DNA of 64,000 nucleotides. It comes from Acidobacteriaceae bacterium (lineage in GTDB: Bacteria > Acidobacteriota > Terriglobia > Terriglobales > Acidobacteriaceae). The stretch covers positions 1-64,000 of the forward strand of contig JARLFY010000053.1 in the NCBI GenBank assembly GCA_031296325.1, written 5' to 3'. Positions 1-63,687 of this stretch are shown in pieces. The translations under genes were made by a program, and so were the position numbers. Numbering within the stretch: the first letter of the stretch is position 1; each line of letters opens with the position of its first letter. The notes below the pieces were generated by a model. It was not told where the DNA came from and made no database searches. It saw only the letters and a list, made by a program, of their open reading frames with translations.

Positions 1-132
1 AACGGCAAGTGCAACGGCAAGTGCAACGGCAAGTGCAACGGCAAGTGCAACGGCAAGTGCAACGGCAAGTGCAACGGCAAGTGCAACGGCAAGTGCAACG
101 GCAAGTGCAACGGCAAGTGCAACGGCAAGTGC
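1..132. repeat. 12-bp tandem repeat array, at least 11 copies
   Basis: The unit AACGGCAAGTGC is repeated eleven times without a visible mismatch and runs off the left edge, so the true copy number is unknown. Because 12 is a multiple of three the array is open in several frames and encodes a Gln-Arg-Gln-Val repeat in one of them; no start context or conserved protein supports reading it as a gene. A second, degenerate GGCAAC-type array lies at about 178-236. Confidence 0.95.
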
Positions 133-136
133 GCGA

Positions 137-295
137 AGCAGATTCCTCCGCTTCGCTGCGGAATGACAAACAAAAAACGAGCAACGGCAACGGCAACGGC
201 AACGGCAAGAACGAGAGCAACAGTAACGGCAACAGCAAAACGAAATACGGGGATTCTTCCCCTGAACTTTGTGTAGTGTCAGAATGACAAACAAA
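137..295. repeat. two family-1 palindromic repeat cores with a short GGCAAC array between them
   Basis: The first core (137-174) has GCAGATTCC, then a stem-loop, then GGAATGACAAACAAA. The second (246-295) is the variant GGGGATTCTTCCCC...AGAATGACAAACAAA. Both match the dispersed intergenic repeat that recurs throughout the window. Nothing else is seen in the remaining bases up to the mqnE stop at 384. Confidence 0.85.
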
Positions 296-24734: not shown

Positions 24735-25310
24735 ATGGCCACACTGATCGATGCAATTGACGTCAAGCGCAAGAGCCTGTTTGAGTTTGAAAGCACCCCC
24801 TACGCCTGTCTGGAGGCCGAGGTCAGCACCCCGACCGCGCGCGGCGGCCAGACGCTGGTTCGCCTGAAGATGCGCAACCTGCTGACCAACTCGGTCTTCG
24901 AGAAGACCTTCAAGGCCAGCGACAAGTTCAAGGAACCGGATCTGGTTCTGGTTCCCGCAACCTATCTGTACAGCGACAACGACGGATCCTACTTCCTCGA
25001 TCAGGAGAGCTACGAGACGCTCTCGCTGTCTGAACAGATGCTGGGCAATGCGCTGGACTTTCTGATTGATGGAACGCTGGTGCAACTGCACAAGTACAAC
25101 GGCAACCCGATCGGTCTGCAACTGCCCATCTTCGTCGAGTTGGAGGTCTCCTACACCGAACCCGCCGTGCGTGGAGACACATCGAGCGGCAGCGGAACCA
25201 AGGTCGCCCGACTGGAAACCGGGCTGGAGATTCGCGTTCCGCTCTTCATCAAAGAAGGCGAAAAAGTGAAGGTCTCCACCGAGAACCGGGACTTTGCGGG
25301 GCGCGCGTAA
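24735..25310 (+). CDS. efp: elongation factor P family protein with a PTARG loop (EfpL/YeiP-like)
   Basis: 191 residues, with the KOW-like domain I followed by two OB domains, ending in the usual LETGLEIRVPLFI and ENRDFAGRA. EF-P binds ribosomes stalled at prolines and helps peptide-bond formation. The tip loop of domain I, which carries the modified Lys34 in E. coli EF-P (KPGKGQAF), reads VSTPTARGGQTLVRLKMRN. It is two residues longer and has R36 where the Lys would be. That PTARG form matches the YeiP/EfpL subgroup. The rest of the protein is EF-P-like. No epmA/epmB or earP is adjacent. Whether it is the only EF-P in the genome cannot be judged here. A family-1 element begins at the base after its stop. 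Confidence 0.88.
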   Translation: MATLIDAIDVKRKSLFEFESTPYACLEAEVSTPTARGGQTLVRLKMRNLLTNSVFEKTFKASDKFKEPDLVLVPATYLYSDNDGSYFLDQESYETLSLSEQMLGNALDFLIDGTLVQLHKYNGNPIGLQLPIFVELEVSYTEPAVRGDTSSGSGTKVARLETGLEIRVPLFIKEGEKVKVSTENRDFAGRA

Positions 25311-25482
25311 AGCATTTTCGGTAATGGCGTAGACCGTAGCGAAGCGAACAACAGCAGATTCCTTCGCTACGCTACGGAATGACAAACAAATCGGGCTATA
25401 GCGATCCGAAAAACACTCTTATAGCATAGAGCGTCGCAGCCTGAGCGAAATGCGGGGATTCTTCGCTACGCTCAGAATGACA
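25311..25482. repeat. full family-1 element plus a second core, directly after the efp stop
   Basis: The first copy (25311-25420) starts AGCATTTTCGGTAATGGCG, has GTAGACCGTAGCG, the core GCAGATTCCTTCG...CGGAATGACAAACAAA, then CTATAGCGATCCGAAAAACAC, so its two ends are imperfect inverted repeats. A second core of the GGGGATTCTTCGC...AGAATGACAAT type ends at about 25482. The remaining bases to the next gene show only a promoter-sized gap. Confidence 0.85.
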
Positions 25483-29767: not shown

Positions 29768-31000
29768 TTACCTGGCCATGCCGATTGCGGACATCATCCT
29801 TCCGGTGAAGCCGCTCTCGGCGCGGTGGGAGAAGTACTTTCTTCCGGCGGCGGTGCCCAGACCGGAGCAGGCGGTGCATTCGCCGACGACGGTGATGCGG
29901 CGGGCGGAGACTCCGGCGTCTACGAGCTGGCGACGGTTGGCCTCCCACAGGTTCAGGTGGATCTGCGGGCCGATGTTGGAGTGACCCGGAGCGCGCGCGG
30001 TGAGGAAGAGCAGCGGATACTTCTCGTGGATCGGGTCGGAGTCGTAGACCTCGGTGAAGAGTTCGGGTGCGTACGCGAACTGGGAGTGGAAGTCGAAGCG
30101 CAGCTCCTCGCCGACCGAGTAGCAGCAGGGGCCGATCGAGGGGCCGATGGCGGCGACCAGATCCTGCGGGCGCGAGCCGTAGCGCAGGCGCATGGTGCCA
30201 ATGCCGCGCTCGACGATGCGCCCCAGCGTGCCGCGCCAGCCGGCGTGAAAGGCCGCAACCACATGCTTGCGCACGTCGGCGACCAGAACCGGGACGCAAT
30301 CGGCGGTCTGGATGCCGAGATAGACGCCGGGCTGGTCGGTCATTGCGCCATCGCCGCGCAGCACAGCGTAACCGTCGGGGGTCGAGAGGCGGCTGGGGTC
30401 TGCGCAGTCCTCGGCCTCGATGATGCGGATAATTCCCGAGTGAATCTGGCGCAGAGTGACGAGGCCGGGTTCAGGGATCGGGAGCGCTGTGGTTGACGAG
30501 TCCGCTGCGCCGTCGAGAGCATTTTTACCAAAGGGGTAGACCGCGACACTGCGGGCAAAATGCGGGGATTCTTCGCTCCGCTCAGAATGACAATTCATTT
30601 CTGGTCTACAGCAATTTGAGGAAGGCTCTAGTATCTGCGCAAGGAAGCGGCGGCGGTTCTCGGCGACGTTGGCTGGGGAGTCGTGTTCGGTCCAACCGAG
30701 ATTGAGGGTTCCCTGCCCCTCCGCGTCATTCTGGCTGTAGACGGTGGAGAGGCCTCCGGCGCGCTGGCTGAAGCCGTGGCGCAGCCATGCGTAACGCTGC
30801 CAGTCTGCGGCGCGCAGCGGCCCCTCGTCGGACGCAGAGGCGCGGCTTGCTGCTGCGGGTTTGGCGACGGATTGGCGCGGCTGTCGTTCGCCGTTCTGCC
30901 AGCATCCGGTGCGCGTCTTGCGGCTTCCGTGGCCAAGGCCGACTGAGGCCAGAATGTCGTCTACTGCGCTGATTGCCTGCGCGCTCTCTGGCTTGTTCAT
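29768..31000 (-). CDS. pgeF: PgeF/YfiH-family protein with a palindromic element inserted in frame
   Basis: About 410 residues from ATG 31000 (GTG at 31030 is the alternative); E. coli YfiH has 243. The family is copper/zinc-dependent and has been described as purine nucleoside phosphorylase/laccase-like and as a peptidoglycan editing factor. The metal-site motifs are intact: LRQIHSGII (His), GIQTADCVPVLV (Cys) and AAFHAGWRGTLGRIV (His). Excess length comes from two places. One is an N-terminal extension of about 65 low-complexity residues. The other is the segment at residues 125-162, which reads NCHSERSEESPHFARSV and is a complete 114-bp family-1 element (30516-30629). Convergent with murI, divergent from aroDE. 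Confidence 0.88.
   Translation of the reverse strand: MNKPESAQAISAVDDILASVGLGHGSRKTRTGCWQNGERQPRQSVAKPAAASRASASDEGPLRAADWQRYAWLRHGFSQRAGGLSTVYSQNDAEGQGTLNLGWTEHDSPANVAENRRRFLAQILEPSSNCCRPEMNCHSERSEESPHFARSVAVYPFGKNALDGAADSSTTALPIPEPGLVTLRQIHSGIIRIIEAEDCADPSRLSTPDGYAVLRGDGAMTDQPGVYLGIQTADCVPVLVADVRKHVVAAFHAGWRGTLGRIVERGIGTMRLRYGSRPQDLVAAIGPSIGPCCYSVGEELRFDFHSQFAYAPELFTEVYDSDPIHEKYPLLFLTARAPGHSNIGPQIHLNLWEANRRQLVDAGVSARRITVVGECTACSGLGTAAGRKYFSHRAESGFTGRMMSAIGMAR
30516..30629. repeat. complete family-1 element inside pgeF, 114 bp
   Basis: Ends AGAGC (30516-30520) and GCTCT (30625-30629). Inside them lie GGTAGACC and its exact inverse GGTCTAC, then the central core GCGGGGATTCTTCGCTCC...CAGAATGACAAT. 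The length is exactly 38 codons and the minus-strand frame used by pgeF has no stop, so the gene stays open through it. This copy best defines the element's borders. Confidence 0.9.
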
Positions 31001-31222
31001 GACTTGCTCATCCTGTGTGGGGTCTGCCACGATTTATCGCTGGATAATGTGCCGCTGAGTCTATTTTGCTGCGGCCAACGTCTATTCTAGACGGAGCGGT
31101 AGCCCCGCGGTGAAGTTCTGTGATTTCCATGCCATAGATGAAGAGTTTTATAGGCTCAAACATTATTTTTCAAGAAGAGTTGCATCCTAACCAGTAGCTC
31201 TGTAAGATACGCGATTGCGACT

Positions 31223-32898: not shown

Positions 32899-32936
32899 CG
32901 GATTTCGTTCGGCGATGCATAGCCGAACGAAATCCG
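32899..32936 (+). terminator. perfect 15-bp hairpin after aroDE
   Basis: CGGATTTCGTTCGGC (32899-32913) pairs perfectly with GCCGAACGAAATCCG (32922-32936) across GATGCATA. Part of it (GATGCAT and CCGAACGAAA) recurs at about 55939-55956, so it belongs to the family-4 repeat as well as being placed like a terminator. No T tract. Confidence 0.55.
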
Positions 32937-32944
32937 CGTTCCGG

Positions 32945-33097
32945 GGGAAAAGCCCCTTATTTCTGCGCCGATTCTGGTGTCCGGGCTAAAGCTATTCTCG
33001 TAAAGGTGTAGTCCGTCGTCGAATAAAGACAAGCAGATTCCACCCTTCGCTACGGAATGACAAACAAATAGGTCTATCGCAACTCCGAGAACGCTCT
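32945..33097. repeat. family-4 palindrome followed by a family-1 element
   Basis: GGGGAAAAGCCCC and GTCCGGGCTAAAGC (32945-32993) match the family-4 pattern also seen at 55968-56023. A family-1 copy then runs from about 32990 to GCTCT at 33093-33097, with the core GCAGATTCCACCCTTCGC...GGAATGACAAACAAA and the right arm GGTCTATCGCAACTCCGAGAA. No gene is seen in 32855-33219. Confidence 0.75.
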
Positions 33098-35380: not shown

Positions 35381-35473
35381 TATAGGTCGGGCCTTCAGCC
35401 CTCAGTCTTTGTGCTGGGCATTGACCTAGGCCTTAGGCCTAGGCTGGTATAGAACGGGCCTTTGGCCCTTGCC
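35381..35473. repeat. family-3 repeat, copy A (93 bp)
   Basis: Starts TATAGGTCGGGCCTTCAGCC and ends GGGCCTTTGGCCCTTGCC, with the inner palindrome CCTAGGCCTTAGGCCTAGG. Copy B at 44298-44390 has the same length and differs at about nine positions by eye. Confidence 0.85.
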
Positions 35474-37607: not shown

Positions 37608-37623
37608 ATCGTGCTTTTGGGTT

Positions 37624-37745
37624 TTATGTCTTTCGGTAATGGGGTAGACCGTTGTGGCGTGAGGAAAAGCAGATTCCTTCGCTTCGCTACGGAATGACAA
37701 ACAATGCGGAACGACAAACAAATCGGGATGGCATACAAATTGTAG
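37624..37745. repeat. family-1 palindromic element
   Basis: Left arm TTTCGGTAATGGGGTAGACC, core GCAGATTCCTTCG...CGGAATGACAAAC, then a second partial GGAACGACAAACAAAT. Lies between the convergent cytochrome and permease genes. Confidence 0.8.
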
Positions 37746-44297: not shown

Positions 44298-44390
44298 TAT
44301 AGGTCGGGCCTTCAGCCCTCGGTCGTTTAGCTGGGCTTGTACCTAGGCCTTCGGACTAGGCTGGTATAGAACGGGCCTTTGGCCCTTGCC
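44298..44390. repeat. family-3 repeat, copy B (93 bp)
   Basis: Same 93-bp length and ends as copy A at 35381-35473 (TATAGGTCGGGCCTTCAGCC ... GGGCCTTTGGCCCTTGCC). The inner palindrome here reads CCTAGGCCTTCGGACTAGG. A part-copy of the GGGCCTTTGGC end occurs near 53381 and, inverted, near 13137-13152. Confidence 0.85.
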
Positions 44391-53415: not shown

Positions 53416-53501
53416 AGAGCATTTTTTTAGTAATGGGATAGACCGTCGCGAAGAGAACAAAAGCAGATTCCTTCGCTTTGCTACGGAATGACAAACAAAA
53501 T
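53416..53501. repeat. family-1 element, left end intact
   Basis: AGAGCATTTTTTTAGTAATG, ATAGACCGTCGCGAAGAG, and core GCAGATTCCTTCGCTTTGC...GGAATGACAAACAAA; the right arm is missing. Just upstream (53381-53396) is part of the family-3 end GACGGGCCTTTGGCTCTTGG. Nothing else is seen in 53365-53650. Confidence 0.8.
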
Positions 53502-53650
53502 GAATCTGGCCGGCGCTCTTTGTGGGCTATTATGATTGGCGGAAAACTGCGTGGAGTTTTTCTGCGCCGAATTTTCCGCGGGATGCTGTTCGCGTCCCAA
53601 GATTGATTGCAGTCCCGTCAGACCTCTTGAACTCGAAAGGAACGACCAGC

Positions 53651-55943: not shown

Positions 55944-56181
55944 ATCGCCGAACGAAAGCCATATCCCGGGGCTAAAGCCCCTTGTCTACGCTCTGATTCT
56001 GTTGTCCGGGCTAAAGCCCGGACCTATCTCAGAGGCAAAAACAAAGGAAAAAGCAGATCCCCTTCGGGGTTGACAAACAAAAACGAGCAACGACAGCGGC
56101 AAAAACAAAAGCAATGGCTTGTGGCGCGAAGTGTATTCCTCCCACTCATTGCAGGAGACACAGGCGCGATGGATGGGGTCC
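55944..56181. repeat. mixed repeat block: family 4, short family-1 core, family 2
   Basis: Family 4: GGGGCTAAAGCCCC and GTCCGGGCTAAAGCCCGGAC (55968-56023). Short family-1 core: GCAGATCCCCTTCGGGGTTG then ACAAACAAA (56053-56080). Family 2: CCCACTCATTGCAGG...GCGCGATGGATGGGGTCC (56139-56181), preceded by GCTTGTGGCGCGAAGTGTAT, which also precedes the copy at 61619. No gene in 55901-56304. Confidence 0.75.
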
Positions 56182-63553: not shown

Positions 63554-63591
63554 GGCACCTATTTTATGGAAGTGCAATCGTTAGAGAATTT

Positions 63592-63687
63592 TCGATAATG
63601 GTTTAGGCCATAGCGCAGCGAGAAAAAGCAGATTCCTTCGCTTCGCTGCGGAATGACAAACAAATTGGTCTATACAGGGAGTTTTCG
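63592..63687. repeat. family-1 element
   Basis: AGAGAATTTTCGATAATGG, TAGGCCATAGCGCAGCGAG, core GCAGATTCCTTCG...CGGAATGACAAACAAA, right arm TGGTCTATACAGGGAG. Lies between araB and the partial gene at the window end. Confidence 0.8.

Follow-up and report, generated by a model that had tools for sequence, protein, structure and literature searches.

A probable IS630-type MITE lies in frame within pgeF and other genes of an acidobacterium

The pgeF gene considered in this study (YlmD/YfiH family; positions 29768..31030, minus strand) carries within its reading frame a palindromic sequence of the sort otherwise found mostly between genes. It lies in a 64,000-nt stretch of DNA from a draft genome of Acidobacteriaceae, and I will refer to that whole stretch as the window. 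The protein is readily recognized (Pfam Cu-oxidase_4, 8.3e-60), and its 420-amino acid frame runs through the palindromic element, from which it gains 38 extra residues. What is this element, and how did it come to lie within a gene that can still be read from end to end? The answer I consider highly probable is that it is a non-autonomous MITE of the IS630/Tc1-mariner type that inserts at TA and has been tolerated in frame in several genes.

An earlier note, made from the letters of the window, described a complete 114-bp element at 30516-30629, open in the frame of pgeF, whose ends (AGAGC/GCTCT) enclose inverted inner arms (GGTAGACC/GGTCTAC) and, within these, a core hairpin. All of these parts are present, and neither a stop codon nor a frameshift interrupts the 38 codons. 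By BLAST and a covariance model, the element itself is placed at 30517..30628 on the plus strand (112 bp, GAGC...GCTC), so that under a model of insertion at TA, the 114 bp consist of a mobile part of 112 bp and 2 bp of duplicated TA. The consensus orientation of this copy is plus, i.e., antisense to pgeF, and it is 83% identical to the family consensus. The right TA of the presumed target-site duplication (30629..30630) serves as positions 2 and 3 of a Leu codon (CTA) of pgeF, and the left TA (30515..30516) has apparently decayed to GA, judging from the TA ends of the consensus and the net inserts of 112+2 bp found elsewhere.

The ends of the element constitute an imperfect 28-bp terminal inverted repeat (TIR) bounded by TA, with no transposase inside. 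In the pgeF copy, the two repeats lie at 30515..30542 (plus strand) and 30603..30630 (minus strand), each of about 28 bp including the TA and each containing the inner arm GTAGACC. Between them is a core repeat, GGGGATTCTTCGCTCCGCTCAGAATGACA (30564..30592, plus strand), a short hairpin that is read in pgeF on the minus strand as CHSERSEES. The junction peptides of the insert in PgeF lie around LEPSSNCCRPEMNCHSER. In the consensus of the family, the core is flanked by the ends TAGAGCATTTTC...ATGGTGTAGACC and GGTCTACAGCAATT..GAGAAATGCTCTA. The 114-bp element folds better than most shuffled versions of itself (z = -2.26; 5 of 200 shuffles were equally good). When 25 copies are aligned, 86.1% of the cells at the pairs of the TIR and core are paired, as compared to 30-50% when the partners are slid, and 14 pairs have changed on both sides, as compared to 6.5 in shuffles. 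RNAalifold applied to the same alignment retained only the core hairpin, with 8 pairs.

The source genome of the window (hereafter G000) is a draft with 94 contigs that total 2,595,216 bases. It is 88.8% complete, and copies of insertion sequences may be missing from it. BLAST of the pgeF element against it gave at least 40 scored matches (from 224 first-look candidates), with E-values as low as 1.4e-26. A covariance model, built from the 25 aligned copies from G000 with the pgeF copy among them, found at least 150 copies, these being the best 150 of 1685 candidates (worst E = 3.4e-5), and the score of the pgeF copy stands fifth among the 150. The copies appear old, with a median identity to the consensus of 75%. 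The earlier note had counted more than a dozen copies in the window, identical in plan. The count holds up, since there are 18 matches at E <= 0.01, including that in pgeF, but identity in plan can be granted only to the best copies. The covariance model gives 21 matches at E <= 1, and strong scores (>70 bits) are reached by five of them; degenerate matches are numerous, and in a few cases matches overlap one another.

Several other features of the copies and their surroundings may be recorded here. On the 36 contigs of G000 that bear two or more copies, that of the window among them, 101 of 119 copies lie on the majority strand of their contig (84 expected, sd 3.4). GC skew is positive in the flanks on the plus strand of the element in 98 of 150 cases, and in a crude test based on open reading frames, copies are antisense to neighboring genes 24 times as against 8. 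A subfamily (window positions 25308-25400, 37623-37715, 53417-53509 and 63582-63674, and G000:C4:49668-49782) has the same terminal repeats paired with a different core (GCAGATTCCTTCGCT..GGAATGACAAACAA), which suggests from the sequences that core and ends may be exchangeable modules. The first 250 positions of the window (1-250) hold a 12-bp tandem repeat (AACGGCAAGTGC) that continues into a related core repeat. Finally, one copy of a 93-nt repeat matches the Acido-Lenti-1 RNA (RF01687), and a second copy is 90% identical to it (window 35425-35469 and 44298-44390).

The distribution of the element is narrow. A survey of the genus under stricter filters, at E <= 1e-5, found matches in 9 of 41 genomes: at least 89 in G000, 40 in a relative labeled G008 and 30 in another labeled G017. 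Each of the remaining 38 had 0-3, and six of these had 1-3. A draw of 200 genomes from the order, at E <= 1e-8, yielded two with matches, G000 and one other (a single match, among 199). The 178 genomes of this draw without a match are anonymous, and G008 and G017, to judge from their scores in the genus survey, would match if drawn. A scan of a public genome collection for the pattern of the element, in which the records closest to the window may be lacking, gave matches only in two contigs of Granulicella sp. MAG bog_405, which makes an acidobacterium of the Granulicella type the probable host. The TIR-bearing element is almost limited to three related genomes among those searched, and the pattern that would have spoken against the earlier note, the same PgeF segment in distant genera with no repeat elsewhere, is absent. 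The core repeat is distributed more widely than the element that bears the TIRs, also in relatives without the TIR family, since the counts of the core (GGGGATTCTTCGCTnCGCTCAGAATGACA, three mismatches or fewer) extend beyond the genomes of that family: 146 in G000, 121 in G008, 23 in G017, 53 in G009, 54 in G010, 11 in G001 and 0 in G022. The reversed core, used as a control, found no match in any of these seven genomes.

How does the element insert? The most common net insert, by the ends of the model, is 114 bp (112 between the TAs plus one TA), seen in 33 of the 150 copies. Amongst the 75 copies of nearly full length, TA is the most common pair at both ends; both ends are TA in 26, and TA is missing from one or both ends in 49. 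The flanks show a preference for YTAR (Y before, R after) in 58 of the 75 on each side, and they give no clear signal of target duplications of 3-9 bp. Two genes permit comparison with empty sites in relatives. The gene for a protein of the glycerate-kinase type has 171 nt where all four relatives compared (G017, G008, G022 and G009) have 57, and the gene for a methyltransferase has 171 nt where three of four (G017, G009 and G001) have 57, G008 having 69 between the same anchors. The net insert is thus exactly 114 bp in both genes, and the empty methyltransferase site of G017 reads CAATTAGCT, TA included. From this comparison with relatives, the TA target would appear to have been duplicated upon insertion, as is characteristic of an IS630-type MITE.

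To return to pgeF, a search for the protein gave matches in 39 of 41 genomes, including G000 (those in G008 are to the element and not to PgeF), and loci were taken from 30, 29 of them outside G000. The extra segment, for which the earlier note had proposed an alignment with orthologues, is found in none of the 29 aligned homologues, in an alignment where L010 and a few others barely cover the left side. The insert sits in a linker of variable length between the N-terminal part of the protein and the RQIHSG motif. The structure of YlmD (PDB 6t0y) has 2 residues opposite 52 here, with a weak match (9.6 bits) on the N-terminal side of the gap. The closest homologue, that of G017, is 81% identical downstream, and no exact empty site can be read in it, because its linker is shorter and differs too much. 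Purifying selection acts on pgeF on either side of the insert: dN/dS relative to G017 is 0.25 before it and 0.32 after it (relative to G009, dS is saturated). The motifs RQIHSG, TADC and HAGWRG, which I take to bind metal, are retained, as the earlier note had said. A single-sequence AlphaFold2 prediction of PgeF (pLDDT 32.5) is too low in confidence for use.

These observations bear on two explanations that would do away with an insertion. The extra segment might be an ancient loop that is native to PgeF and resembles the repeat by chance, and it is true that the length of the linker varies naturally. However, the 114 bp match other copies in G000 from end to end, at identities up to 83% and with the E-value of 1.4e-26 already given, and the segment is missing from every aligned homologue. 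(The high score of the covariance model weighs less, as the pgeF copy is among the 25 sequences from which the model was built.) I give this explanation next to no credence. Alternatively, the gene might be a pseudogene or a chimera of assembly, which must be considered in a draft metagenome-assembled genome, where repeats can give rise to misassembly. This too is very improbable, given that the flanking halves belong to one gene in one frame, both with the low dN/dS values described above, and that exact net inserts of 114 bp recur in independent genes.

In order to assess how general the phenomenon is, I read all 150 scored copies in G000 together with their flanks for frames that run through. 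Copies are crossed by 29 reading frames that extend 40 residues or more to either side. Eight of these resemble real genes: pgeF, mnmG, nnr (YjeF), the m5U methyltransferase, the DUF4147 protein of glycerate-kinase type, an EamA transporter and two membrane proteins. The remaining 21, judged by eye, are mostly in the wrong frame or upstream of the start of a gene. Pfam supports the host genes with matches to GIDA, YjeF_N/Carb_kinase, tRNA_U5-meth_tr, DUF4147 and EamA. A match to DUF6798, below the cut-off, is the only one for the first of the membrane proteins with any, and the other has none. For six of the seven genes other than pgeF, six relatives served for comparison; the second membrane protein is recognized by its open frame. 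Besides the two genes with readable empty sites already described, eamA has 201 nt where four of four relatives have 57 between the same anchors, a net insert of 144 that corresponds to a longer copy of the element. In mnmG, nnr and the first membrane protein, the copies occupy loops that vary in length; the relatives lack the repeat there but do not allow an exact empty site to be claimed. The copies in mnmG and the second membrane protein have eroded ends. By this comparison of sequences, the element is present in frame in what appear to be at least six genes besides pgeF, adding about 38 amino acids. Since G017 and G008 possess the family but lack these six insertions (and G017 lacks that in pgeF as well), the six, and the one in pgeF, would have arisen in the lineage of G000 or been lost in the relatives. 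The suggestion of the earlier note that a short mobile element may spread without destroying genes draws support from the PgeF homologues, from the selection on pgeF and from these further genes.

A similar scan of relatives considered 20 stretches picked from the matches, requiring at least 75 residues on either side of the core. It produced one clear case, a core in frame inside a protein of G009 of the complex I 30/49-kDa type, as judged by Pfam (L252, G009:C35). In addition, a core is found at the N-terminus of a protein of G017, ahead of a stretch resembling a signal peptide (L253, G017:C12). The other stretches of the 20 contained no intragenic copy at that threshold. Different repeats occur in frame at the same site of mnmG, between the FSFR and LRQ motifs, depending on the genome (L160 in G009; L159, in a second mnmG-like copy of G017; G000:C16:20262-20379), as if this site were a hot spot for tolerated insertions. 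A membrane protein of G017 (L199) has an GGTGCCCCATCC-type repeat near the site of an insert in G000.

What might have moved the element? No match to the IS630 transposase (DDE_3) was found in G000, itself an 88.8%-complete draft. Matches are present in G008 and G017, and two of those in G008 lie between inverted copies of the TIR: one in an element of 1030 bp (C149; 8 and 9 mismatches of 28) and the other in an element of 1027 bp (C28; 5 and 6 mismatches of 28). Shuffled loci give at best about 12 mismatches for one end, and the best summed mismatch for a TIR pair in 26 other loci is 15 (L210, which holds one MITE), with the next eleven at 22-25. The remaining DDE_3 loci (C103 of G008, C73 and C62 of G017) lack the TIR. 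The frame of the transposase is broken in both G008 elements, into two reading frames in one and three pieces in the other. The TIRs are thus similar to those of full elements of the IS630 family in G008, as expected of a MITE of this type, and that family is the probable mobilizer. A transposase of the DDE_Tnp_1 type was considered as mobilizer and rejected: G000 has a single weak match, G008 has eight and G017 has five, and no TIR pair surrounds the transposase in the ten loci scanned. At one such locus in G008 (L214), a copy of the element lies a few hundred bases away.

A different origin would make the element akin to REP sequences, which are short palindromes that owe their spread to a Y1 tyrosine transposase (RAYT or TIRYT). 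Such TIR-flanked transposases have been reported for Acidobacteria, including Granulicella mallensis (PMC3733652), and Y1 transposases occur in G008, G017 and four other relatives searched. However, Y1_Tnp found no match in G000, and in the relatives the seven loci checked, of 22 matches, lack the TIR, with 11-13 mismatches at best, the level of shuffled sequence. At the three tested for flanking inverted repeats, other repeats are present, and it is the two IS630 elements that carry the TIR instead. The TA ends, moreover, suit IS630. I rejected RAYT as the mobilizer, and consider this origin quite improbable. The repeats inverted around Y1 genes of G017 and G008 (L222, L225 and L230) are of the GGTGCCCCATCC or the GGGGC-GGCTTTAGCC type, and they resemble other repeat families of the window, at 56103-56178 and 32908-32992. 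Another view is that the element has been retained for a function, as a regulatory RNA hairpin or a useful peptide. The core hairpin is indeed conserved, and the strand orientation of the copies is not random. Against a useful peptide, the fraction of changes that are synonymous is 0.42 in the pgeF copy (8 of 19), 0.38 in the methyltransferase copy and 0.27 in the glycerate-kinase copy, where 0.28 is expected and 0.31 is seen in non-genic copies of the same length; the numbers are small, and they give no clear sign that the peptide is under selection in the three copies. I regard retention for function as improbable.

The MITE might nonetheless be suited to reside in genes. Its consensus is open in the antisense orientation in the phase in which TA occupies codon positions 2 and 3 (xTA; LEHFSNCCRPEMNCHSERSEESPHFARSATVYTITENAL), and in the sense orientation the same phase is open when a variable site is C, not T. 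The xTA phase is that of six of the eight copies in frame, of which the one in nnr is read in sense and the other five in antisense, and the copies in mnmG and the second membrane protein use another. Of the remaining 142 copies, 40 are open in the antisense xTA phase and 14-28 in each of the other five phases. Design of the reading frame was considered and rejected, since openness as such is ordinary: amongst dinucleotide shuffles that keep the ten end bases on each side, 20% are open in the antisense phase that is used, 5% are open in that phase in both orientations, and 74% have some open frame. All eight genic copies have lengths that are multiples of three, as compared to 69 of the 142 others, a circular comparison in that the genic copies were chosen by their open frame. 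That the MITE is adapted to spare genes, by a net insert of whole codons and the same TA phase open in both orientations, is a speculation that I think unlikely but not idle. If it were true, a gene-sparing MITE would spread cheaply in the coding DNA of a free-living bacterium, steadily supplying new loops of 38 residues.

The element has relatives in kind. Rickettsia palindromic elements (RPEs; Ogata et al. 2000) occur in frame inside genes of Rickettsia, and a guanylate kinase bearing one is active (PMC10969869, PMC2229807). Like the present element, RPEs are palindromes bounded by terminal inverted repeats, have a length of about 105-150 bp, and occur both between genes and in frame in genes of conserved proteins. 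In contrast, RPEs belong to obligately intracellular alphaproteobacteria and are described with 12-bp TIRs, TA ends in some and a target duplication given as undetermined (PMC2229807), whereas the present element, from an acidobacterium, has TA ends, 28-bp TIRs and a partner in IS630; given its different host lineage, I do not class it as an RPE. The parallel drawn by the earlier note thus applies to behavior and does not extend to common descent. The RUP element of pneumococcus, with 107 bp, 108 copies, the TIRs of IS630-Spn1 and TA (PMC2229807), is similar in its size of about 110 bp, copy number on the order of 100, TIRs in common with an IS630 element and TA target, but as far as that account goes RUP is intergenic, and the present family is found also in frame, with a core repeat that also occurs alone. 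REPs are likewise palindromic repeats, translated within open reading frames of several bacteria, and the same account places TIR-flanked Y1 transposases in Acidobacteria (PMC3733652); by its description, REPs are 20-40 bp and those of the GTAG type are tied to Y1, unlike the 114-bp element with its IS630-type TIRs. Correia elements (NEMIS), MITEs of about 107-155 bp with TIRs and TA at the termini (PMC2229807), are alike by description and inhabit another host, and QMITEs of Coxiella are reported to occur in frame (PMC5896051). Within the open-licence literature on MITEs, IS630 and repeats in Acidobacteria and Granulicella, the titles and beginnings of abstracts contain no description of the present element, nor of 'SERSEES'. 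It is a new MITE family that joins an in-frame palindrome with a link to IS630 in an acidobacterium, a rare combination of traits each already known.

The reading I favor, a MITE of the IS630 type, would account for the locus as follows. The transposase of a full-size element of the IS630 family may recognize the common 28-bp TIRs, and the 112-bp unit would be inserted at TA, preferably YTAR, duplicating the TA and adding 114 bp, or 38 codons, with each insertion. Those in the xTA phase within tolerant linkers could persist as in-frame and presumably translated peptides, and other insertions in genes were presumably purged, leaving copies that are mostly intergenic. In pgeF, the element would have lengthened a naturally variable linker ahead of RQIHSG, probably with neutral effect on the protein.

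Translated palindromic elements come mainly from Rickettsia and Wolbachia and are not known to have an established mobilizer. With a family from another phylum that numbers more than 100 copies, targets TA and is matched in its TIRs by an IS630 element, the entry of transposon scraps into enzymes becomes testable. The element also offers an origin for peptides of the 'CHSERSEES' type in proteins of the genus, and it raises the question of how often ordinary transposition leaves tolerated scraps in working enzymes.
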